Source: Bacteroidales bacterium
Lineage (GTDB): Bacteria; Bacteroidota; Bacteroidia; Bacteroidales; Muribaculaceae
Length of the DNA stretch: 39,229 nt
Direction: 5' to 3'
Assembly: GCA_014800735.1 (NCBI GenBank)
Contig: JAAVFP010000056.1
Span: 1-39,229 of the forward strand
This document shows, in pieces, positions 82 through 39,127 of this stretch. The position numbers and the translations under genes were made by a program. How positions within the stretch are numbered: position 1 is the first letter of the stretch; every line of letters starts with the position of its first letter. Below the pieces are notes generated by a model. It was given only the letters and a program-made list of their open reading frames with translations, was not told where the DNA came from and ran no database searches.

Positions 82-2187
82 ATGCTGTCGCTGCGCAACT
101 ACGACATAAAATATATCAAAGGCATAGGCCCGGGCCGTGCTGAGCTCCTTGCATCCGAGCTCGGCATCCGTTCGGCCTACGACTTGTTGCGCCACTACCC
201 CACGGCCTATGTTGACCGGTCCAAAACCTACACCCTGCGCTCGCTTGCCGATGTGGCCGGCGACAATGCTCCGCAGTTGCAGGTCAAGGGGCGCTTCGTG
301 TCGTTCAACGTGCTTGGCGAGGGCGTGCGCATGCGCCTTGTCGGCCTGTTCACTGACGGCACCGCCACCATGGAGGTAGTGTGGTTCAAGAACATAAAGG
401 GCATACGCAAATCCGTGACCGTGGGCCAGACTTATGTGCTCTTCGGCAAGCCCACACGCTTCATGAGCACTATCCAGATGGCTCACCCTGAGGTGGATGT
501 GCCCGAGGCCGCGACCGCTTCGGCCGGTCTTCACGGCGTGTATCCGCTCACGGAAAAACTTCGTCAGCGCGGCATCAACGCCCGCGTGCTCTACGGCGCC
601 GTGGTTGCCCTGCTTGACAGCCGGCGCACACCACTTGCCGAGACTCTGCCTCCTTCGGTTGTTCAAAACCTGGGACTGATGAGCCTTGACGAGGCAATCC
701 GCACCATCCATCTGCCTGACGACCCGCGCAAACTGGACCGCGCCCGCCAACGCCTAAAATTCGAGGAGCTGTTCTACATCCAGGTGGACATCCTGCGGCG
801 CTCACGCTTGCGCAAGAACGAAATCCAGGGTTACTACATGCCTCGCGTGGGCCGCTGGTTCAACGATTTTTACAGCCGCTGCCTGCCCTTTGAGCTAACC
901 GGGGCACAGAAGCGCGTGATTAAGGAAGTGCGCGCCGATATTACCGGCGGCCGCCAGATGAACCGCCTGGTGCAGGGCGACGTAGGCAGTGGTAAGACTC
1001 TCGTTGCACTCCTGTCCATGCTCCTTGCTGTGGACAACGGCTACCAGGCCTGCCTGATGGCTCCCACGGAAATCCTTGCCACCCAGCACTATGAAACAAT
1101 ATCGGGCATGACCGCGGCTATAGGGCTCAACGTGAAACTGCTGACCGGCTCCACCCGCACCGCCGCAAGGCGCCAGATAGCGTCGGAACTTGAGGACGGC
1201 TCGCTGCACATCCTGATCGGCACTCATGCCGTGATTGAGGACAACGTGCAGTTTGCGCAGCTTGGCTTCGTGGTGATTGACGAGCAGCACCGCTTCGGTG
1301 TGGCTCAGCGCGCGCGCCTGTGGGGCAAAAGCGCCGTGCCGCCGCATGTGCTCGTGATGACCGCCACCCCCATTCCGCGCACGCTGGCCATGACAGTCTA
1401 CGGCGACCTTGATGTATCCGTAATCGACGAACTACCGCCCGGACGCAAGCCCGTGGCCACCGTGATGCGCTACGAAAACCAGCGCGAGAGCGTGAACCGC
1501 GGCATCCGCGCCCAGATTGCCGCCGGCCACCAGGTGTACATCGTGCACCCGCTTATCGAAGAGAACGAGAAGCTTGACCTGCGCAGCCTCGAGGAAGGCT
1601 ACGAGGCCACTTGCCAGGCTTTTCCGGGTGTGCCCGTGGCTTTTGTCCACGGCAAGATGAAGGCGGCCGAAAAGGATGCCCAGATGCAACGTTTTGCTTC
1701 GGGCGAGGCAAAAATTCTGGTGGCTACCACCGTGATTGAGGTGGGCGTGAACGTGCCCAATGCCACGACTATGATTATAGAGAACGCCGAGCGCTTCGGC
1801 CTAAGCCAACTGCACCAGTTGCGCGGACGTGTGGGCCGAGGAGCCGACAAATCGCACTGCGTGCTTATGACCAAGCACAACATCGGCGGCGACACCCGCA
1901 AGCGCCTGGAGATAATGACCTCCACAACGGATGGTTTTGTGATTGCCGAGGCCGATATGCAGCTGCGCGGCCCAGGCGATATTGAGGGCACCATGCAGAG
2001 CGGCCTGCCATTCGAACTCAAGATTGCCAATCTGGCCCGCGACGGTCAGATTATAGGTCATGCCCGGCGCGCCGCCGAACAGCTCCTGGATGCCGACCCG
2101 GTTCTTGCGCTGCCTGAGAACGCGGCCTTTGCCCGTTCACTCGCGCTCACTGTGAACCGAAGCACCGACTGGAGCAAGATTTCATGA
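82..2187 (+). CDS. recG: ATP-dependent DNA helicase RecG
   Basis: This 701-residue superfamily 2 helicase matches the usual RecG length. RecG reverses stalled replication forks and processes branched recombination intermediates. The N-terminal part (about residues 1-230) holds the wedge/OB-fold region and opens with the helix-hairpin-helix-like YIKGIGPGRAELL. The motor motifs are in order: Walker A GDVGSGKT (299-306), DEQH box (400-403), TATPIPRT (427-434) and motif VI QLRGRVGR (579-586), followed by the RecG-specific C-terminal segment (AEADMQLRGPGDIEGTMQSG). The start at 82 is the first ATG, 8 bp after the ispD stop. All diagnostic motifs are intact. Confidence 0.97.
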   Translation: MLSLRNYDIKYIKGIGPGRAELLASELGIRSAYDLLRHYPTAYVDRSKTYTLRSLADVAGDNAPQLQVKGRFVSFNVLGEGVRMRLVGLFTDGTATMEVVWFKNIKGIRKSVTVGQTYVLFGKPTRFMSTIQMAHPEVDVPEAATASAGLHGVYPLTEKLRQRGINARVLYGAVVALLDSRRTPLAETLPPSVVQNLGLMSLDEAIRTIHLPDDPRKLDRARQRLKFEELFYIQVDILRRSRLRKNEIQGYYMPRVGRWFNDFYSRCLPFELTGAQKRVIKEVRADITGGRQMNRLVQGDVGSGKTLVALLSMLLAVDNGYQACLMAPTEILATQHYETISGMTAAIGLNVKLLTGSTRTAARRQIASELEDGSLHILIGTHAVIEDNVQFAQLGFVVIDEQHRFGVAQRARLWGKSAVPPHVLVMTATPIPRTLAMTVYGDLDVSVIDELPPGRKPVATVMRYENQRESVNRGIRAQIAAGHQVYIVHPLIEENEKLDLRSLEEGYEATCQAFPGVPVAFVHGKMKAAEKDAQMQRFASGEAKILVATTVIEVGVNVPNATTMIIENAERFGLSQLHQLRGRVGRGADKSHCVLMTKHNIGGDTRKRLEIMTSTTDGFVIAEADMQLRGPGDIEGTMQSGLPFELKIANLARDGQIIGHARRAAEQLLDADPVLALPENAAFARSLALTVNRSTDWSKIS

Positions 2188-28805: not shown

Positions 28806-31157
28806 TTATCGTATAAAAATTCTGAATTTAGCATAGAAAGCTCGGCCGGGCTTCTGAAGCTTATAATTATCGTAAGCAAGACGGTTGAACGCATTGTTGC
28901 ATTCCAGCGACAGATTATAGCGCTCGTCGCACAGCGAGTAAGATACTGCGAAGTTGGTGATGCACTGCGTCGGGATTTTAGCTTTGCTCTCCAGCGAACC
29001 ATAGGCTTCCCAGTTCAGGAAATACCAGTGAATCCACTCGAATGAAGCCTCCAGGCGCAGGCGGTCGTCCAGGCGGGAAAGACGGCGGAAAGTGTAGGAT
29101 GCCTCGGCATTGCCGAACAGCCACGGGCGGTTGGGCACACGGTTCTTGTAGGTTGCCGAGGGGTTGCCGTCGGTCTTGAATTCCTTCAGGTCGCGGGCAT
29201 CGTTCCAGCTGCCGTTCACGCGCAGGTTGAGGGCGTCGCGCCAGGTGTAGGATAGATCGAAGTCCATGCCTTTGACCTCGATGGCAGGTTCGTTGACATA
29301 CTGCATCATGCCGTCGCGCTCGGATACGGTCACACGGATGTAGTTCTGCACGTGGCGGATGAAGCCGTTGAGCTCGTAGGCGAACAGATGCTCGGGCGAA
29401 GAGTAGACGGTGCCGAAGAAGCCAAGGTTCCAGTTGTTGCTCTGCTCGGGAGCCAGGGCCAGGTTGGGATAGACGGTGGTTCCGTTGCCCAGTAGTTCGC
29501 GCGACAGCGGCAGGCGCACGCTGTGCTCGTAGCTGGCCTTGACGGCCAAGGCGCTGCGTAGGGTGAAGCGGGTGCCCACGCCGGCGCCCCAGTAGCTCTG
29601 GGTGTTGTTCGGCTCAATATCGTTGGCACCACTTATGGTGGCGTCGTCGGTCTGTTCGATGCGGGTGGAGTTGATGTAGTCCTTTACGAAGAACATATTC
29701 TGCCAACGGTCGTCGAAGAACACGTTGGTATAGGTGAGCGACAGGATGTGCTTGGTCACAACGTCGTTGGAGGGTTCGAAGCTCGTGTCCACCTCGTCGG
29801 ACCGACGGTTGCCGCGGCGGTTGAGCATGTAGTTCACGCTCAGTGTGTGGCGGGGCAGAAATTCGTAGTCGGCACCGGCACTAAGCACTGTGAGGGGACG
29901 CTTGTAGTTGCGGATGGTGCGGGCGCGGTTGTTCATTTCGTTGCCGGTGGCCGGACGCCAGCTGCCGTCCCAGGAATATTTGCGGAAAGCGGTGTCGACG
30001 GTCTGGCTGAAATCATCGGTGTGCGACAGGTTGAACCGTGTGCCCACAGGGCCCCACTGCTTGGTGTAGCGCGCGGCGATATTCCAGGCGTGGGCTTTGC
30101 GCTCGGCCATGCCGTAGACTTTGTTCTGCATCGCACCGGTCTGGATGTCCTTGCGGATGTCGGTGTAGGAACCGCTCACAAAGAAGGCATCGGCCCAGCG
30201 AACGTCGTTCACTCCGGCTTCCAGCTGCACCAGGGCCGAGGTGTAGTCGTCGTGGAAACGCTTGAGGTCGGTAAGAACGAATTTATCCTCTTCGTCGCTC
30301 CATATTTCTACGTCGCGCATGGTATAGTCGTTCTTGGACGTAGTGTAACCGGCCGACAGACGCACGGCAACGGGCGTTCGCGGCACCATCAGCTGGCTGT
30401 TGAGGTCGGCGCTGTGGGTGTGGAAAGAGCCGAAGCCGTAGGAGGCATCCACAAAGTTCTCGCGTTTGCGCTTGGTGATGATATTCACTGCCCCACCCAG
30501 AGCGTCGCTGCTCAGGGAGCTGGGCACTACGCCTTTGTAGAGCTCCACGCGCTCCACCATGTTCACGGGGATATTGTCGAGGTTCACCTGGCTGCCCTTG
30601 GAGTCAAGGGGGACACCGTCAATAAAATAGCGGATTGAGTTGCCGCTCAGGCCGTTGATACTGAGGTCGAGGTCGGAGCCTGCCCCACCCTCGCGGCGCA
30701 CTTTCACGCCGGCGGTCCGGTCCACGATGTCGTTGAGGCTCGTCAGGCGGTTCACATCGGCGCGTATTTCCACGGCGTTGAGCGACAGCGCTCCTTCGGC
30801 CACACGGCGTGCCTGCGACTTACCCAGCACGCTCACATCAGCGAGAGCCACGGCATCCTCGGCAAGGCCGAAATCGCACACGGTGTCCGAAGTCAGCACC
30901 AGGCGGCGCGAGGCCGTCGTGTAGCCCGAGGCGGATGCTTCAAGAGTCACGTCGCCTGATAATTTGAGTGAATAGCGGCCGTCGGCATCCACCTGCACTG
31001 CCGCGCCGGAGGGCGTTGTGCGTACTATTGCCCACGTCAGAGGGTCGCCCGAACGGTCGGTGACGCGGCCCGAGACCGTAAATGCAGCAATGGCCTGCGG
31101 GATGGCCGCAAGCATCACAATGGTTGTCAGAACGGTGAGCAGTTTCCTCTGTTTCAT
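28806..31157 (-). CDS. TonB-dependent outer membrane receptor (B12-riboswitch controlled)
   Basis: The protein is 783 residues from the ATG at 31157; an upstream in-frame TTG was rejected. A signal peptide (about 1-24) is followed by a carboxypeptidase-regulatory-like beta domain (about 25-105), a plug domain (about 115-225, with FIDGVPLDSKG, VERVELYKGVVPSSLSSDALGGAVNI) and a 22-strand-type barrel ending in AKFRIFIR. The protein imports a ligand across the outer membrane using TonB energy. The riboswitch upstream and the chelatase genes downstream point to a corrinoid or other tetrapyrrole, possibly heme as for HmuR. No substrate-specific residue can be named. The leader between riboswitch and start is about 160 nt. 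Confidence 0.9.
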   Translation of the reverse strand: MKQRKLLTVLTTIVMLAAIPQAIAAFTVSGRVTDRSGDPLTWAIVRTTPSGAAVQVDADGRYSLKLSGDVTLEASASGYTTASRRLVLTSDTVCDFGLAEDAVALADVSVLGKSQARRVAEGALSLNAVEIRADVNRLTSLNDIVDRTAGVKVRREGGAGSDLDLSINGLSGNSIRYFIDGVPLDSKGSQVNLDNIPVNMVERVELYKGVVPSSLSSDALGGAVNIITKRKRENFVDASYGFGSFHTHSADLNSQLMVPRTPVAVRLSAGYTTSKNDYTMRDVEIWSDEEDKFVLTDLKRFHDDYTSALVQLEAGVNDVRWADAFFVSGSYTDIRKDIQTGAMQNKVYGMAERKAHAWNIAARYTKQWGPVGTRFNLSHTDDFSQTVDTAFRKYSWDGSWRPATGNEMNNRARTIRNYKRPLTVLSAGADYEFLPRHTLSVNYMLNRRGNRRSDEVDTSFEPSNDVVTKHILSLTYTNVFFDDRWQNMFFVKDYINSTRIEQTDDATISGANDIEPNNTQSYWGAGVGTRFTLRSALAVKASYEHSVRLPLSRELLGNGTTVYPNLALAPEQSNNWNLGFFGTVYSSPEHLFAYELNGFIRHVQNYIRVTVSERDGMMQYVNEPAIEVKGMDFDLSYTWRDALNLRVNGSWNDARDLKEFKTDGNPSATYKNRVPNRPWLFGNAEASYTFRRLSRLDDRLRLEASFEWIHWYFLNWEAYGSLESKAKIPTQCITNFAVSYSLCDERYNLSLECNNAFNRLAYDNYKLQKPGRAFYAKFRIFIR

Positions 31158-31315
31158 TTCGTGGGTTGGCACTGCCGGGAGTTTCAATCACTCATGCGCA
31201 CAACCATCTTAAAAGAATGTGTCCGACCGCAGGCACGGTCCCTGACATTCCACCACAGAGGGAGGGTGTTGGGCGTTTTGCAATTTTATGTCCCGAAAAT
31301 TTCAAAACAATATGT

Positions 31316-31480
31316 TCAGTCTGGCAGGTCTTCTGACTCATCCTCTTGTCCGGCGGCCTTCCCATCGCACCTGTGGGCGACAGTGGCGTGATTGCCGAGG
31401 CAAGTTGGGCAGGATTTACAGCAGCGGGTCTGTTCAGGACTTTCACCTGATTCCCTTTTCACCGCGAATGCTCGCGGCAC
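31316..31480 (-). ncRNA. cobalamin riboswitch
   Basis: Read on the minus strand, the conserved blocks are in order. They are GGGAATCAGGTGAAAGTCC (31455-31437), then CTGCTGTAAATCC, then CCACTG, GGGAAGGC (31363-31356), and the B12 box AGTCAGAAGACCTGCC (31338-31323). It sits 160 nt before the TonB receptor. In this class, adenosylcobalamin binding lowers expression of the downstream genes. Boundaries are approximate. No hairpin with a T run was found between the aptamer and the start codon, so control is more likely translational than by termination. Confidence 0.95.
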
Positions 31481-31490
31481 CAAACTGCGG

Positions 31491-31521
31491 CAAAGTTACG
31501 AACTTTATGACAACTGACAAA
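31491..31521 (-). promoter_or_regulatory. promoter of the B12-riboswitch operon
   Basis: Minus strand: TTTG (31521-31518), 19 bp, TAACTTTG (31498-31491), an exact fit to the Bacteroides consensus. Transcription would start near 31484, immediately before the riboswitch. Confidence 0.88.
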
Positions 31522-31588: not shown

Positions 31589-31954
31589 ATGGACCTTTCC
31601 GATATCCGCAACTACTGCCTGTCGCTCCCCCACGCCACGGAGGATACTCCCTTTGGCGAGGACATCCTGATTTACCGCGTGTGCAACAAGATTTTTGCGT
31701 GCATCGACATCAACAATCCTGATATGTTCGTGGCGAAGTGTGACCCCGATTATGCAATCGAGCTGCGCGACGCACACCCCGAAATCGAAGGTGCATATCA
31801 CTGGAATAAAAAATACTGGAACCAGGTGGGCAATCTGGCCAATCAGCGCAGTGAATTCGTAAAGTCGCTCATAAGGCACAGTTACGCGCAGGTTGTCAAG
31901 AAATTGACCAAGGCTCAAAAGAACGAATTTCCCGAAATTCTTGAAATTTGCTGA
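31589..31954 (+). CDS. MmcQ/YjbR family protein
   Basis: This 121-residue protein has the CyaY-like fold family signature: a short N-terminal helix (DLSDIRNYCLSLPHATEDTPFGEDILIYRV), KIFACIDI, and a C-terminal DNA-contact-like helix (LIRHSYAQVVKKLTKAQK). MmcQ/YjbR proteins are annotated as DNA-binding, but their cellular role is not known. The in-frame TTG at 31559 overlaps the promoter -7 box, so the ATG at 31589 is chosen. The gene stands alone, and no terminator hairpin was seen before the metX promoter 8 bp later. Confidence 0.85.
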   Translation: MDLSDIRNYCLSLPHATEDTPFGEDILIYRVCNKIFACIDINNPDMFVAKCDPDYAIELRDAHPEIEGAYHWNKKYWNQVGNLANQRSEFVKSLIRHSYAQVVKKLTKAQKNEFPEILEIC

Positions 31955-31961
31955 CACAACA

Positions 31962-31993
31962 TTTGCATATTTCAAATTATAATCATACTTTTG
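31962..31993 (+). promoter_or_regulatory. promoter of the metX-hom leader
   Basis: TTTG (31962-31965), 20 bp, TACTTTTG (31986-31993) is an exact consensus match. The predicted transcription start near 32000 leaves a 155-nt leader before metX. Confidence 0.85.
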
Positions 31994-32020
31994 CACCCAT
32001 AATTCAGAAAAACGACAATA

Positions 32021-32086
32021 ATGACTAACTGTTTCACCTCCGCTATGATGGCCATGATGATGCGCGGCACCGACTGCCGGGTGTGA
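32021..32086 (+). CDS. methionine-rich leader peptide of metX operon (21 codons)
   Basis: This short open frame begins with ATG at 32021, about 21 nt after the predicted transcription start and in an A-rich context (AGAAAAACGACAATA) typical of Bacteroidetes starts. It ends with TGA at 32084-32086. Met codons occur at codons 9, 10, 12, 13 and 14 (32045-32062, Met-Met-Ala-Met-Met-Met), with Cys at codons 4 and 19. Five internal Met in 20 codons is far above expectation. The run lies just before the first arm of a set of alternative RNA hairpins. By analogy with trp, his and leu leaders, it should sense charged tRNA-Met. The peptide itself probably has no other function. Confidence 0.8.
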   Translation: MTNCFTSAMMAMMMRGTDCRV

Positions 32087-32151
32087 TTGGGGCGTGAAAT
32101 AGTTTATGCACTTACATCCGGCTGACAGCTTTGCTGAGGCCGGATTTTTTT
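32065..32151 (+). promoter_or_regulatory. transcription attenuator of metX-hom: alternative hairpins and terminator
   Basis: Four segments can pair in the classical way. Segment 1 CGGCA (32065-32069) pairs with TGCCG (32075-32079). Segment 2 GCCGGGTG (32076-32083) pairs over 8 bp, with one G-U, to segment 3 CATCCGGC (32115-32122). Segment 3 ATCCGGC also pairs with segment 4 GCCGGAT (32139-32145), extended by CAGC/GCTG inside, followed by seven T residues (32145-32151). A ribosome stalled on the Met codons would cover segment 1, free segment 2 and block the terminator. Free translation would allow termination. The T run ends 3 nt before the metX ATG. Confidence 0.8.
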
Positions 32152-32154
32152 ATT

Positions 32155-33171
32155 ATGATACAATACTACCGACATAACGAACCATTCGAGCTCGAACTGG
32201 GCGGCACACTGCCCGAGCTCGTGATAGCATATCACACCTACGGCACGCTCAATGCCGCCCGCGACAATGCCGTGTGGGTGTGTCACGCACTCACCGCCAA
32301 CAGCGACGTGGCCGACTGGTGGCCGCACACGGTTGAAGCGGATGCGTTCCTTGACCCCGACCGCTACTTCACGGTGTGCGCCAACATCCTGGGCTCGCAC
32401 TACGGAACGACCGGTCCGCTGAGCACCAATCCCGCCTCGGGCGAGCCCTACTACGGCGATTTCCCCGCCATCACCATCCGCGACATGGCCCGCGCCCACG
32501 CCCTGCTGGCCGACCATCTGGGCCTGGACCGCATCAAGGTGCTGGTGGGCAGCTCCGTGGGTGGTTTCCAGGCTGTGGAGTGGGCCGTGGAGCAACCTGA
32601 ACGTTTCGAGAAACTGATTCTTATTGCCACCGACGCCAAGGCCTCGCCCTGGAGCATCGCTGTGGACGAAACCCAGCGTATGGCCATCCGCGCCGACGCC
32701 ACATTCGGCCAGCGCCGCCCGGACGCCGGAATGGCCGGAATGGCTGCCGCACGAGCCATAGGCCTGCTCACCTACCGCGGACCGCTGGGCTACAACTCCA
32801 CTCAGCAGGACCCCGACGGACTGCCGGCCGACGCCCTGCGCCGCCCAGTCACCTACCAGCGCCACCAGGGCGACAAGCTGTGCAAGCGCTATAACGCCTA
32901 TTCCTACGTGACCATCCTGGATGCTTTCGACACCCACGATGCCGGGCGCGGCCGCGGAGGCCTCGATGCCGCCCTTGCACGCCTGGCAATGCCTGCACTG
33001 GTGATTGCCATCACCACCGACATTATTTTCACCCCGGCCGAAATGCGCGCACTGGCCGCACGCCTGCCCCGCGCACACTACGAGGAAATCGCCTCCGACC
33101 TGGGCCACGACGGGTTCCTGACCGAGCACCGCCGCCTGAATCAACTGCTAATTCCTTTCATCCAACAATGA
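32155..33171 (+). CDS. metX: homoserine O-acetyltransferase MetX
   Basis: This 338-residue alpha/beta-hydrolase-fold enzyme acylates homoserine from acetyl-CoA, the committed step to methionine. Visible marks are CHALTANSDVADWW near 43-56, ILGSHYGTTGP (78-88), the nucleophile elbow GSSVG with Ser134 (132-136), a late TDIIFTPAEM segment carrying the triad Asp, and SDLGHDGFL with the triad His. The usual acyl donor is acetyl-CoA, though family members using succinyl-CoA cannot be excluded by sequence. The ATG at 32155 comes directly after the attenuator's T run; an in-frame TTG at 32131 lies within the terminator and is rejected. It overlaps hom by 4 bp (ATGA). Confidence 0.93.
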   Translation: MIQYYRHNEPFELELGGTLPELVIAYHTYGTLNAARDNAVWVCHALTANSDVADWWPHTVEADAFLDPDRYFTVCANILGSHYGTTGPLSTNPASGEPYYGDFPAITIRDMARAHALLADHLGLDRIKVLVGSSVGGFQAVEWAVEQPERFEKLILIATDAKASPWSIAVDETQRMAIRADATFGQRRPDAGMAGMAAARAIGLLTYRGPLGYNSTQQDPDGLPADALRRPVTYQRHQGDKLCKRYNAYSYVTILDAFDTHDAGRGRGGLDAALARLAMPALVIAITTDIIFTPAEMRALAARLPRAHYEEIASDLGHDGFLTEHRRLNQLLIPFIQQ

Positions 33172-34382
33172 ACGACAAGACAATTCGTATAGGCCTGTTC
33201 GGACTCGGCACCGTGGGCCAGGGCATTTTTTCGGTGATACGCCGCGCCCGCAACGCCCATGCCGAAATCCGCCGTATCTGCGTGCGCAATCTTGATAAGC
33301 CCCGCGGCATCGAGGTGGACCCGGCACTCCTCACCACCCGCCCCGAGGATATCCTTGCCGACCCTGAAATAGACCTCATCGTGGAGCTGATAGACGATGC
33401 CGAGGCCTCCTACGCCATCGTCACTGAGGCTTTGCGCCGCGGCATCCCGGTGGTGAGCGGCAACAAGGCCATGATAGCCCGCCACCTGCCCGAGCTGATT
33501 GAACTCCAACGCAAGCACGGCACCGCCCTGCTCTACGACGCTTCGTCGTGCGGCTCGATTCCGGTAATCCGAAATCTGGAGGAGTACTACGACAACGACC
33601 TGTTGCTGGAGGTGAAAGGCATTCTCAACGGCTCGACCAACTACATCCTTAGCCGTGTGTTTGACCACGGCGAGAACTACGACGACGCGCTGGCACGGGC
33701 ACAGCAGCTGGGCTTTGCCGAGAGCGACCCTTCGCGCGACATCGAGGGCCTCGACTCGCTCTTCAAGCTCATCATCATCACCGTCCACGCTCTGGGCGTC
33801 TACGTGAAGCCGGAGGATATTTTCACCTACGGCATTGCCAATATCCACGACAGTGACATCCGCTACGCACGCGAGAAGCGCGTGAAAATCAAACTCGTGG
33901 CTCAGGTGGTGAAGGTTTCGGAGGAGCAATTCACCATGTTTGTGATGCCGGAATTCGTGGAGAAAAACCGATATATCTACAGCGTGGACGACGAATACAA
34001 CGGCGTGGTCATCCGCGGCGAGTGCTACGACCGCCAGTTCATGTTCGGCAAGGGCGCCGGGTCGCTCCCCACGGCATCGTCAATCCTAAGCGACGTTATG
34101 GCGCGCCGCTACGGCTACCGCTACGAATACCGCAAGATGAGCTACGCCGGACTGCCCCACTACACCACCGATATCACTCTGCGCGTCTACATCCGCTACT
34201 CTACCACCGAGGTCACCCGCCTGCTGCCGCTGCGGGCCATCTACGAAGTGTACACCTCCACGGAGAGCAGCTACGTGATTGCCGACATCTGCCTGGCCGA
34301 CCTGATGAAGTACCGCGACCTGCTCACGGCCCCGGACATCTTCATGTGCAACATCCCCATGTTCTTCAAGGACGACGACTGA
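33168..34382 (+). CDS. hom: homoserine dehydrogenase
   Basis: This 404-residue monofunctional enzyme reduces aspartate semialdehyde to homoserine, the substrate of MetX. The N-terminal Rossmann motif GLFGLGTVGQG is at 9-19. ELIDDAEASYAIV and VVSGNKAMIA follow (about 73-100, Lys of the NAD site), then the catalytic-domain block GILNGSTNYILSRV with AESDPSRDIEGLDSLFKL (about 151-200). The C-terminal ~60 residues are not an obvious ACT domain, so threonine feedback is uncertain. The start overlaps the metX stop, indicating coupled translation and shared attenuation control. A combined Hom-MetX unit, separate from threonine genes, fits methionine-specific supply. Confidence 0.93.
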   Translation: MNDKTIRIGLFGLGTVGQGIFSVIRRARNAHAEIRRICVRNLDKPRGIEVDPALLTTRPEDILADPEIDLIVELIDDAEASYAIVTEALRRGIPVVSGNKAMIARHLPELIELQRKHGTALLYDASSCGSIPVIRNLEEYYDNDLLLEVKGILNGSTNYILSRVFDHGENYDDALARAQQLGFAESDPSRDIEGLDSLFKLIIITVHALGVYVKPEDIFTYGIANIHDSDIRYAREKRVKIKLVAQVVKVSEEQFTMFVMPEFVEKNRYIYSVDDEYNGVVIRGECYDRQFMFGKGAGSLPTASSILSDVMARRYGYRYEYRKMSYAGLPHYTTDITLRVYIRYSTTEVTRLLPLRAIYEVYTSTESSYVIADICLADLMKYRDLLTAPDIFMCNIPMFFKDDD

Positions 34383-36934: not shown

Positions 36935-39127
36935 ATGGCCAGTAAATATAATACAGTTCCCTCCAGATGGGAAAAAATCAAGGCATCTTTTAGTTCTACA
37001 GGTATCGTAGGGACTAAACTCATTGAGCATTATACATGTGCTCCGGAGACACGTTCTTTCCACTTAGATTTATATAAAAACATTGAAATCGTCTGCGATG
37101 AAGCATTATTGGATGCTACAGACAAGAACGCACCTGTTGTCTTCACTGACAAACTAAAAGCAGTTGGCCGAAGGGCTTTCGGGCCGAAACTTCCAAGAGC
37201 GGAGTTCTACGGTCCTGTACCGGAATTTGACCCTGAAGCATTTGCTGCCATATCTACAAACTTCACAGTTTTCGCGTCGGATGCCCACTTCGAGGAATTC
37301 GTGGACGCACTGCGCCACCTTGCACCTACGGCGAAAGTTCGCTGTCTGGAAAGGGAGGAACAGGCACGAAAGGCAGAGATCGAAATGGAACGGATTAGAG
37401 AGGCCCTGGAAAAAGCATCCGAAGAGCGCAGAAGAATCGCAAGAATCGAACGCAAATTAAAAGTTACCCTTACAAGCAACGGTGGCCTTGTATGTTGGAT
37501 TGAGAGCCCGATTTGGAAATTACCTTTCGTGATTTCCGAGGCAGGGGTCAAAGCAACCTTTACTTTTACCCCGGTCGAAGAAGGCAAGGAATCGCATGCC
37601 TTTTCCGTAGATGTTCCGGTAAAAAGATTGCTTTTGCCAGTCAACAACCGTCGCCGTCTGATGGACGAGGACGGACATGCTAAGTTATACGACCATCCCG
37701 ACTGGACTCTTGATAGCGGCGGACAGAAATTCCAGCGCGATGCCGCCGACATCTTCATTGATCCCGACTACTACGACAACGAGCAATACTCGTTCCTGAA
37801 GAATCTGATTTACAGACGCAATACCGGCACTCCCCACGAAGATTACCATTACACTTTCCCTGCACGAATGTTCAGCCTGCGCAAAGGCGAGAAACTGGAA
37901 CTGACTTATGGTTCCGTGGTTTTTGACGGCGAGGAATTTTTTGAAGTCAACCAGATAGAAATCCCGGCAATCGACAATGAGCGTCTGACCGAAGAAGATT
38001 TCTACCTTCAGGCAATCAATAACGACAGCATCAGCAAACGTGGTTCCTCGAGCGACTATCCGATATACGACATGATTGCTATCGGCGGAAAGTTCCTGTT
38101 CCTGGAAAGTGTGGAAATATCTTCTCCCACACAGACCAAAACGCTGATTCAGGACTACAAATGTGCCACCAACTTAGCCTACGAGCATCCGCGGACAGAG
38201 AAAATAAAAATTCCTGTCGATGAATGGAACCGAGAGGATGCCGAGAGATTCGTGGAGGAATTTGTCGCCAAGCGTAAACAGGAGGATGACGAAGAAAAGC
38301 AGCGAATCAACAAAAGTCATGATACGTTGGAGGAGCTGTACGGTGATATTCTCAAGGAATATGCCCGCAAGGGTCTCAGCCCTATCAAAGCTTCCCAAAA
38401 ACTGGTGGAGGACTTGATGTCAGGCCGGGTACGACCGAGAGAATCCTCGGCTAAGACCGTCTCGAAAAAGACACAGACACCCCCGACTGTCAGCGCCCAA
38501 AAAAGCGAGTCCGGCGCGAAAACGCAGGAGGATTACGCTGCTTTCAACGGTGAATACGCTGAAATCTCTGCGGACCTTAATAAATTTGATATTGCGGTTG
38601 CTCAAGTGCTGAAGCTGCCGCTGGATGAACCCACGTTCCATTCAAATCGCGCATATCTTGAAAGTAAAGGCGCGTGGATTGCCCGCGTTCATAATCCCGC
38701 CGCTCCCGAACTTGATTTTATCCACAGCCTGAGCTCAAGCACCTACAGCTCCGCTTTGCGCCGTTTGTCGCTCAGGGCGTTCAGCAAATGGAACGGCACC
38801 CCCACCAGCATTTTTATCAGCCGTGACCACAAATTCATAAAAGGTCCGGTAGGTATGACATTGCGGTCCCGAAATCTCATCGGGCGGGCATTGGAGGATT
38901 TGCTCGGCCGCCCTGACAAGACTGAAGGTCACGTCCCGTCAAAACCCACTCTGCTCCGCCTCTTCATTCACGATGCCGGAAACTGCCGGACCATGGACCT
39001 TCTTATCGATGGCGACCAGACCGTCAAGCATATCAATCCTCAGTATATCGACAAGATTTTGGACAAGGAGCCCCGTCATGTCCAGGATGAAGTTAAGGCA
39101 ATGCAATCAATGATAAGTAACCCTTAA
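36935..39127 (+). CDS. uncharacterised 730-residue protein
   Basis: I do not recognise this protein. It has no signal peptide or membrane helix. In order there is an N-terminal globular region (1-135) and a charged coiled coil (about 138-176, rich in Glu, Arg and Lys). A large beta-rich region follows (about 177-410). A second charged helical segment (about 425-480, EEFVAKRKQEDDEEKQR), a Ser/Lys/Thr/Gln-rich linker (about 505-535) and a C-terminal globular domain (about 540-725) complete it. No catalytic motif stands out. Its codons are AT-richer than those of the upstream genes, and a MITE-like element lies directly before it, suggesting acquired DNA. No consensus promoter is visible. The ATG at 36935 is the first in frame. 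Confidence 0.8.
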   Translation: MASKYNTVPSRWEKIKASFSSTGIVGTKLIEHYTCAPETRSFHLDLYKNIEIVCDEALLDATDKNAPVVFTDKLKAVGRRAFGPKLPRAEFYGPVPEFDPEAFAAISTNFTVFASDAHFEEFVDALRHLAPTAKVRCLEREEQARKAEIEMERIREALEKASEERRRIARIERKLKVTLTSNGGLVCWIESPIWKLPFVISEAGVKATFTFTPVEEGKESHAFSVDVPVKRLLLPVNNRRRLMDEDGHAKLYDHPDWTLDSGGQKFQRDAADIFIDPDYYDNEQYSFLKNLIYRRNTGTPHEDYHYTFPARMFSLRKGEKLELTYGSVVFDGEEFFEVNQIEIPAIDNERLTEEDFYLQAINNDSISKRGSSSDYPIYDMIAIGGKFLFLESVEISSPTQTKTLIQDYKCATNLAYEHPRTEKIKIPVDEWNREDAERFVEEFVAKRKQEDDEEKQRINKSHDTLEELYGDILKEYARKGLSPIKASQKLVEDLMSGRVRPRESSAKTVSKKTQTPPTVSAQKSESGAKTQEDYAAFNGEYAEISADLNKFDIAVAQVLKLPLDEPTFHSNRAYLESKGAWIARVHNPAAPELDFIHSLSSSTYSSALRRLSLRAFSKWNGTPTSIFISRDHKFIKGPVGMTLRSRNLIGRALEDLLGRPDKTEGHVPSKPTLLRLFIHDAGNCRTMDLLIDGDQTVKHINPQYIDKILDKEPRHVQDEVKAMQSMISNP

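Follow-up and report, generated by a model that had tools for sequence, protein, structure and literature searches.

A methionine-rich leader precedes metX and hom

We analyzed a stretch of 39,229 nucleotides (nt) from a Bacteroidales bacterium of the family Muribaculaceae (contig JAAVFP010000056.1 of assembly GCA_014800735.1; the whole stretch is called the window below), in which a short open reading frame (ORF) with a run of methionine codons lies upstream of metX and hom. On the forward strand, which carries all features of this section, metX (32155..33171) encodes a homoserine O-acetyltransferase-like protein of 338 amino acids, whose best NCBIfam match is TIGR01392 MetX_acetyl at 328 bits, under the curated cut-off of 500, and hom (33168..34382), which overlaps the metX stop by 4 nt, encodes a homoserine dehydrogenase (NF004976 at 313 bits, over the cut-off of 205, and PF00742). 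The leader ORF (32021..32086) runs from an ATG at 32021 to a TGA at 32084-32086, has corresponding leaders in relatives, and comprises 21 codons that read MTNCFTSAMMAMMMRGTDCRV. Codons 9, 10, 12, 13, and 14 specify Met (32045..32062), the last of them (32060-32062) lying 8 codons before the stop, while the two Cys codons, 4 and 19, both fall outside this Met run. When the 255-nt region was shuffled 5,000 times with its dinucleotide content kept, an ORF with at least four Met within eight codons arose in 5 shuffles and one with at least five in none, compared to the five in eight codons of the window leader.

Three mutually exclusive pairings connect the end of this ORF with the start of metX. 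Segment 1 (CGGCA, 32065..32069), supported by folding and by covariation of the equivalent hairpin in relatives, begins at codon -7 counted back from the stop, immediately 3' of the last Met codon, and pairs with TGCCG at 32075-32079 in segment 2 (32075..32083). Segment 2 can instead pair through GCCGGGTG (32076-32083) with CATCCGGC (32115-32122, one G-U pair) in segment 3 (32115..32123), which serves either as partner of segment 2 in an antiterminator or as the 5' arm of a terminator. In the latter, ATCCGGC (32116-32122) pairs with GCCGGAT (32139-32145) in segment 4 (32138..32145), the 3' arm, identified by folding and covariation, and a tract of seven T (32145..32151), as in an intrinsic terminator, ends 3 nt before the metX ATG. 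Folding gave -53.3 kcal/mol for the Met-leader RNA (z -3.7) and -18.5 to -19.1 kcal/mol for the terminator hairpin. A pattern-based terminator scan of the window found none and did not report the 3:4 hairpin, probably because its pattern allows no internal loop.

Upstream of the ORF, a -33-type TTTG element (31962..31965) and a -7 box, TACTTTTG (31986..31993), which is an exact TAnnTTTG, correspond to the Bacteroidota promoter consensus given in the available part of PMC7366714, and transcription would accordingly start near position 32000. The box by itself is common, with 21 occurrences in the window compared to 12.7 expected. An earlier sequence-only reading of the window had proposed a methionine attenuator here; its leader ORF, Met positions, three pairings, and seven-T run proved right at every coordinate, and the promoter that it had claimed matches the Bacteroidota type.

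Met leaders recur in two gut families

We found the same arrangement upstream of metX and metY genes in related genomes. The metX searches yielded 70 named loci and hits in 89 of 247 Muribaculaceae genomes, giving 139 distinct metX loci, of which 38 have a Met-run ORF upstream; one of these (L052) is doubtful and, having no clear terminator or segment 2, was excluded from the counts unless stated. Most leaders precede a metY-metX pair, and those of L019, L022, L036, L053, and the window stand directly before metX. The named records are labeled Alistipes, including the cultured A. montrealensis kh20 and Alistipes sp. An66 (loci L037 and L039), Muribaculaceae, or, more vaguely, as Bacteroidales, Porphyromonadaceae, or Bacteroides metagenome-assembled genomes. 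Leaders occur at 36 of the 75 metX loci with at least 65% identity, while among the 64 below this value only L053 and the doubtful L052 have one. An initial scan with a strict terminator requirement missed leaders with broken or weak U tracts, and later leader scans dropped this requirement; L067, L106, and a second ORF in L053 were discarded as distant chance ORFs. When both strands of the 139 loci (715,037 bases) were scanned for at least four Met in eight codons followed by a terminator, 30 cases emerged and all were leaders, whereas clusters of other residues gave scattered non-leader hits (for example, Leu 11, Ser 11, and Arg 7).

A covariance model built from 35 leaders, which relies for the most part on sequence, matched 26 of 247 Muribaculaceae and 23 of 200 Rikenellaceae genomes (the family of Alistipes montrealensis) at an E-value of 1e-4 or below, with one match in each of these 49 of 447 genomes. 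Of the matches, 47 are Met leaders directly before metY or metX, 46 assigned by script (43 metY, 3 metX) and one, L225, read by eye as it is cut by a contig end; the other two, L213 and L214, are plain terminators and were rejected. All 47 carry the Met run, so that the hairpins were not seen to persist before these genes without the Met ORF. The hits included leaders absent from the training set, at least three from Muribaculaceae and 13 distinct ones from Rikenellaceae, which brought the total to 52 distinct leaders plus the doubtful one, mainly from these two families.

Beyond the two families, we obtained weaker signals. In an order-level sample, 81 of 295 genomes matched at an E-value of 0.01 or below, with scores above 32 bits only in the source genome and in G022, and 28 other order-level loci that were retrieved with weak matches showed no Met ORF with a terminator. 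A second weak match in the source genome (contig C18, 27.6 bits) is a terminator without a Met leader. The sole other match at phylum level (296 genomes, E-value of 1e-5 or below), at 1437-1563 (+) of L272, was rejected as the Met-rich C-terminus of a protein, which we take to be Ffh-like, followed by a terminator; such Met-rich gene ends mimic the model and are a source of false positives in scans of this kind. Among the 29 best-scoring non-Muribaculaceae metY loci of the order, none has a Met leader with a terminator, and two have a Met-rich ORF without one. As an aside on metY, two types of the gene follow the same kind of leader, ~70-76% and ~47-51% identical to P0002, respectively, a division that separates L216, L221, L226, L230, L233, L236, and L237 from the other Rikenellaceae loci, as if leader or gene had been exchanged.

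Common anatomy of the leaders

The 52 leader peptides range from 16 to 58 residues with 4-10 internal Met, and Met makes up 20.8% of their residues. In 49 of the 52, the distance from the last Met codon to the stop is exactly 8 codons. Measured from the first base of the last Met codon, segment 2 starts at a median of 14 nt downstream (51 leaders, L201 having yielded no terminator call). Within the last 20 codons, ATG occurs 313 times in frame and 2 and 6 times in the other two frames. The stop codons are TAA in 19, TGA in 17, and TAG in 16 leaders, and this nearly equal use of all three points to translation as the thing conserved. Upstream sequence was long enough in 39 leaders (the doubtful L052 included), and 36 of these have an exact TAnnTTTG within 90 nt upstream of the leader ATG, compared to 1.7 expected from single-base shuffles.

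Covariation of the three pairings

We asked of each pairing whether its two sides fit each other better than they fit those of other leaders. As MAFFT aligned the variable linker poorly and RNAalifold found five terminator pairs, anchored counts were used. For the 3:4 duplex, the native partners of 37 loci gave a mean of -19.2 kcal/mol compared to -13.1 kcal/mol for swapped partners, and for the 2:3 duplex, -18.2 compared to -15.5 kcal/mol (standard deviation 0.38), values that none of 20,000 permutations reached in either case. The 2:3 difference persisted in the 17 loci with distinct last codons (-19.0 compared to -14.9 kcal/mol; 0 of 20,000). At the level of single bases, the base preceding the CCGG core in segment 2 was found paired in all 41 distinct leaders, compared to 36.4 upon shuffling (36 G-C, 3 A-T, 1 T-A, and 1 G-T pairs), and the next two bases beyond the core showed a weak excess (P 0.02 and 0.055). 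This count leaves aside 9 of 51 leaders that could not be anchored, in several of which the core is altered on both sides, for example, TGCGCCG/CGGCGCA in L053, GTGTCGG/CCGACAC in L211, and GTCGGA/TCCGAC in L209.

Hairpin 1:2, whose 5' arm comprises codons -7 to -5 and whose 3' arm comprises codons -2 and -1 and the stop, covaries as well. Leaving out three of the 52 leaders whose last Met is not at -8, the first base of codon -6 and the second base of codon -1 were paired in 40 of 45 leaders compared to 31.0 after shuffling (0 of 5,000), the third bases of codons -6 and -2 in 41 of 45 compared to 37.5 (P 0.013), and the first base of codon -7 and the second base of the stop in 34 of 45 compared to 30.3 (P 0.014; for Watson-Crick pairs only, 31 compared to 22.5, P 0.004). 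Where codon -7 begins with C, the stop is TGA in 9 leaders and TAA or TAG in 8, while with T, these numbers are 3 and 22 (Fisher P 0.006). On the metY tree, 11 disjoint pairs of leaders differ at codon -7, and the stop changed as predicted in 5 of them, in the opposite direction in none, and not at all in 6. This link of a stop codon to a sense codon seven positions upstream is an unusually clear indication that RNA structure influences which stop codon is used. We rejected the idea that the Met run itself pairs with segment 2 or with the linker after the stop, as native partners did no better than swapped ones (1,924 and 2,839 of 5,000 permutations were as good), and the whole 5' part of the leader showed a modest pairing excess with segment 2 or the linker (2 and 16 of 5,000).

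Proposed mechanism

With its Met-run ORF, promoter box, three alternative pairings and their covariation, fixed geometry, and link to metX or metY, the Met leader is, in our judgment, very probably a ribosome-mediated transcription attenuator by which the cell gauges how much elongator methionyl-tRNA (Met-tRNA) is available. The leader would be translated, transcription would terminate within the cell at the 3:4 hairpin, and the order of folding would set a response to methionine. The layout of segments pairing as 1:2, 2:3, and 3:4 is that of the trp and his attenuators. When Met-tRNA is ample, the ribosome would pass the Met codons, reach the stop, and cover segment 2, or leave and allow hairpin 1:2 to form; segment 3 would then pair with segment 4, and RNA polymerase would stop before metX. 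When Met-tRNA is scarce, the ribosome would wait at the Met codons, the last of which is just before segment 1, and would thus cover segment 1 and leave segment 2 free to pair with segment 3 before segment 4 is made, such that the polymerase would enter metX-hom or, in most relatives, metY-metX.

Folding calculations agree with these steps. A ribosome covers ~15 nt, the value that we used, and when one was set on the last Met codon of an RNA that ended before segment 4, pairing 2:3 (at least 5 base pairs) formed in 47 of 48 leaders, while with the ribosome at the stop, the terminator alone remained. Mean fold energies of the respective stretches were -6.6 (1:2), -15.2 (2:3), and -16.7 kcal/mol (3:4), and those of the window -11.7 (1:2 with flanks), -23.4 (2:3), and the terminator value given above. 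The attenuator proposed by the sequence-only reading thus gains support from 52 leaders, in which a conserved ORF with clustered ATG codons recurs at a fixed Met -8 geometry together with compensatory changes in stems 2:3, 3:4, and 1:2.

Several observations weigh against this reading. At full length and with the ribosome at a Met codon, the minimum-energy fold of the window leader is the terminator (-26.8 kcal/mol), and hence the device must work by folding order, with 2:3 forming first and holding. A severe Met shortage should block initiation on the leader as well, which is equally an objection and a prediction. The U tract is missing in L200 and L201, unclear in L236, and interrupted in L210, and L208 has lost the stop at its usual place and reads 4 codons further. 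Regarding the pairings, native 2:3 is weaker than the mean of swapped partners in 9 of 37 loci, and past the first three bases beside the core, no significant 2:3 covariation was found in the 41 leaders; 1:2 is significant at 3 of nine tested positions, one inner position never pairs, the last nine codons fold only modestly better than shuffles (mean z -0.9), and the shuffles ignore the relatedness of the leaders. As to occurrence, no leader was found at 101 of the 139 metX loci, and among the 49 loci with metX at 65% identity or more and at least 1,700 nt of upstream sequence, 25 have one and 24 have none. The model counts are a census of a type rather than an independent discovery, as the leaders used for training came from the same families. 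The close metX loci without a leader comprise L010, L038, L040, L044, L064, and 19 others; in the 15 of these 24 that were scanned with Rfam, no SAM-I riboswitch and no T-box was found, and the scan returned one cobalamin riboswitch and some tRNAs.

Alternative explanations

The hairpin could also, or mainly, mask the start of the first gene and thereby control its translation, a possibility that we consider unlikely. In the window and several relatives, ~8-25 nt separate the first T of the run from the start of the first gene, the U tract of the window ends 3 nt from the metX ATG, and L200 and L201, two natural variants, keep the hairpin pairing and have no U tract. Against this stands that most leaders keep a T run directly 3' of the hairpin, which translation control would not need, and that the distance from the leader stop to the first gene varies from 58 to 204 nt.

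The leader could be a mixed sulfur sensor in which Cys codons count besides Met codons, as the sequence-only reading had suggested from the two Cys codons. We regard this as very improbable, even though Cys makes up 4.9% of the leader residues and TGC stands at codon -9 in 20 and at codon -7 in 24 of 52 leaders: ten leaders have no Cys, the Cys codons of the window lie apart from its Met run, and 18 of 52 leaders have CGC (Arg) at codon -7, the first base of which follows the stop codon as pairing 1:2 predicts. The alternation of TGC and CGC at this codon is thereby explained by RNA structure, and the proposed sulfur input is not supported.

A still less probable explanation, which we give hardly any weight, is an arrest peptide, as in TnaC, which stalls the ribosome with Trp; here a nascent Met-rich peptide would bind Met, S-adenosylmethionine (SAM), or another small molecule in the tunnel and stall the ribosome. 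A few C-terminal residues are conserved (Arg at -2 in 46 and at -5 in 35 of 52 leaders), as such a peptide would require, but the conserved codons coincide with segments 1 and 2, and their variation partly follows the pairing (Cys or Arg at -7; Val, Met, or Gly at -1). No conservation is seen in the N-terminal part, leaders differ in how many Met codons they have (4 to 10), and stalling on high Met would presumably have the wrong sign for a biosynthetic operon.

Finally, that the hairpin is an ordinary terminator of the transcript of yjbR, a gene of the YjbR/MmcQ family (31589..31954, +, assigned by family matches) on the same strand upstream of the leader, with a Met-rich ORF there by chance, can practically be discounted: although the hairpin on its own would pass for such a terminator and the plain terminators L213 and L214 match the model weakly, the combination of Met ORF, promoter box, fixed geometry, and covarying 1:2 and 2:3 stems recurs across 52 leaders, and the 715 kb contained no Met ORF with a terminator outside the leaders.

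Relation to SAM-I and to known attenuators

Homologous genes of other Bacteroidales families are preceded by a different RNA. The SAM-I riboswitch (RF00162) resembles the Met leader in its homologous target gene (metY), its place, and its task, but it binds SAM directly and has no ORF, whereas the Met leader has one. Rfam scans located SAM-I upstream of metY on the same strand in 7 of 20 loci drawn from the 29 best-scoring ones above, all from other Bacteroidales families (L242, L243, L244, L246, L251, L253, and L254). It was found in none of 99 Muribaculaceae genomes, the source genome included, and the 5 Rikenellaceae genomes (of 101) in which it occurs do not overlap with the 23 that have the leader; at these numbers, mutual exclusion of SAM-I and Met leader is not proven. 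In the window, the Rfam scan at the gathering threshold found no SAM-I and no T-box, and a cobalamin riboswitch only elsewhere, and the Trp, His, Leu, and Thr leader families of Rfam did not match at the gathering score.

We tentatively suggest, with somewhat less than even confidence, that the Met attenuators of gut Bacteroidales form a class that replaced SAM-I at metY-metX, such that Met-tRNA instead of SAM is gauged and the response is of a band-pass kind. A band-pass response would be expected because methionine also starts every protein, the leader included; if true, expression would be on at moderate shortage and off again once initiator Met-tRNA runs out, and the 4-10 Met codons would tilt the sensitivity toward the elongator tRNA. 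The distribution points to two RNA sensors for one pathway step across Bacteroidales, a SAM riboswitch and Met-tRNA sensing.

Our evidence supports a Met attenuator that is conserved in part of two gut families and that extends control of the trp/his type to an amino acid hardly reported for it. Classical attenuators combine an ORF rich in codons for the product, mutually exclusive 1:2, 2:3, and 3:4 pairings, and an intrinsic terminator. The Met leader shares the codon-rich ORF, the exclusive segments, and the intrinsic terminator with the trp, his, leu, thr, ilv, and phe attenuators of Proteobacteria, but it would sense Met and lies in Bacteroidota. Leader-peptide attenuation is the textbook case of coupled transcription and translation, and the device proposed here would imply such coupling in Bacteroidota, at least over Met leaders. 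Methionine is absent from the lists of attenuators consulted, perhaps since the same amino acid must start the leader, and this initiation question can be tested directly on a complete Met attenuator that is conserved in two gut families. The thrA attenuator of Pasteurellales, which Vitreschak et al. are said to have described in 2004, reportedly carries Met codons in its leader and responds also to methionine; there, Met would act alongside other amino acids, with thrA as the target.

The sequence-only reading had called a Met-codon leader unusual, which holds for Bacteroidota, where we found no report in the open-access literature (subscription papers lie largely outside it, and absence is no proof), but not in general, as the available part of PMC8079986 describes a predicted metL leader before metNIQ in Streptomyces lividans. 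This leader likewise has Met codons before a methionine gene cluster, but it has 2 internal Met in 29, a transporter as target, and no typical intrinsic terminator (termination is called unclear), and no conservation is shown in that part of PMC8079986. The Cys leader peptides before Mycobacterium cys operons, as described in the available part of PMC1262725, also have runs of a sulfur amino acid, but this is cysteine and they have no conserved terminator hairpin; the same part states that upstream of actinobacterial methionine operons no conserved RNA structure was observed. PMC3766115, in its available part, lists the His, Leu, Thr, and Trp leaders of Rfam plus Ile/Val and Phe, and Met is not among them. 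No Met leader is mentioned in the corresponding part of PMC2965389, and in PMC4239095 on Proteobacteria, the strings 'attenuat' and 'leader peptide' do not occur. For Bacteroides thetaiotaomicron, PMC7366714 mentions short ORFs reminiscent of leader peptides and, in the part at hand, no methionine case.

Neighboring genes

The source genome, with an estimated completeness of 85.7%, has one clear PF01053 gene, which lies on another contig (C31, L268) and is followed by genes that are metF- and metH-like by the look of their translations. This PF01053 gene has no Met leader, and hence the attenuator of the window would control only the step by which homoserine enters the branch. Elsewhere in the window, an ORF of 730 amino acids (36935-39127, +) had no Pfam match at an E-value of 0.001 or below. 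Adjoining the metX-hom region, the cobalamin riboswitch noted above (RF00174, 110 bits, 31306-31499, -) precedes a gene for a TonB-dependent receptor (28806-31187, -), and the start of the aptamer match coincides in part with a TAACTTTG box at 31491-31498.

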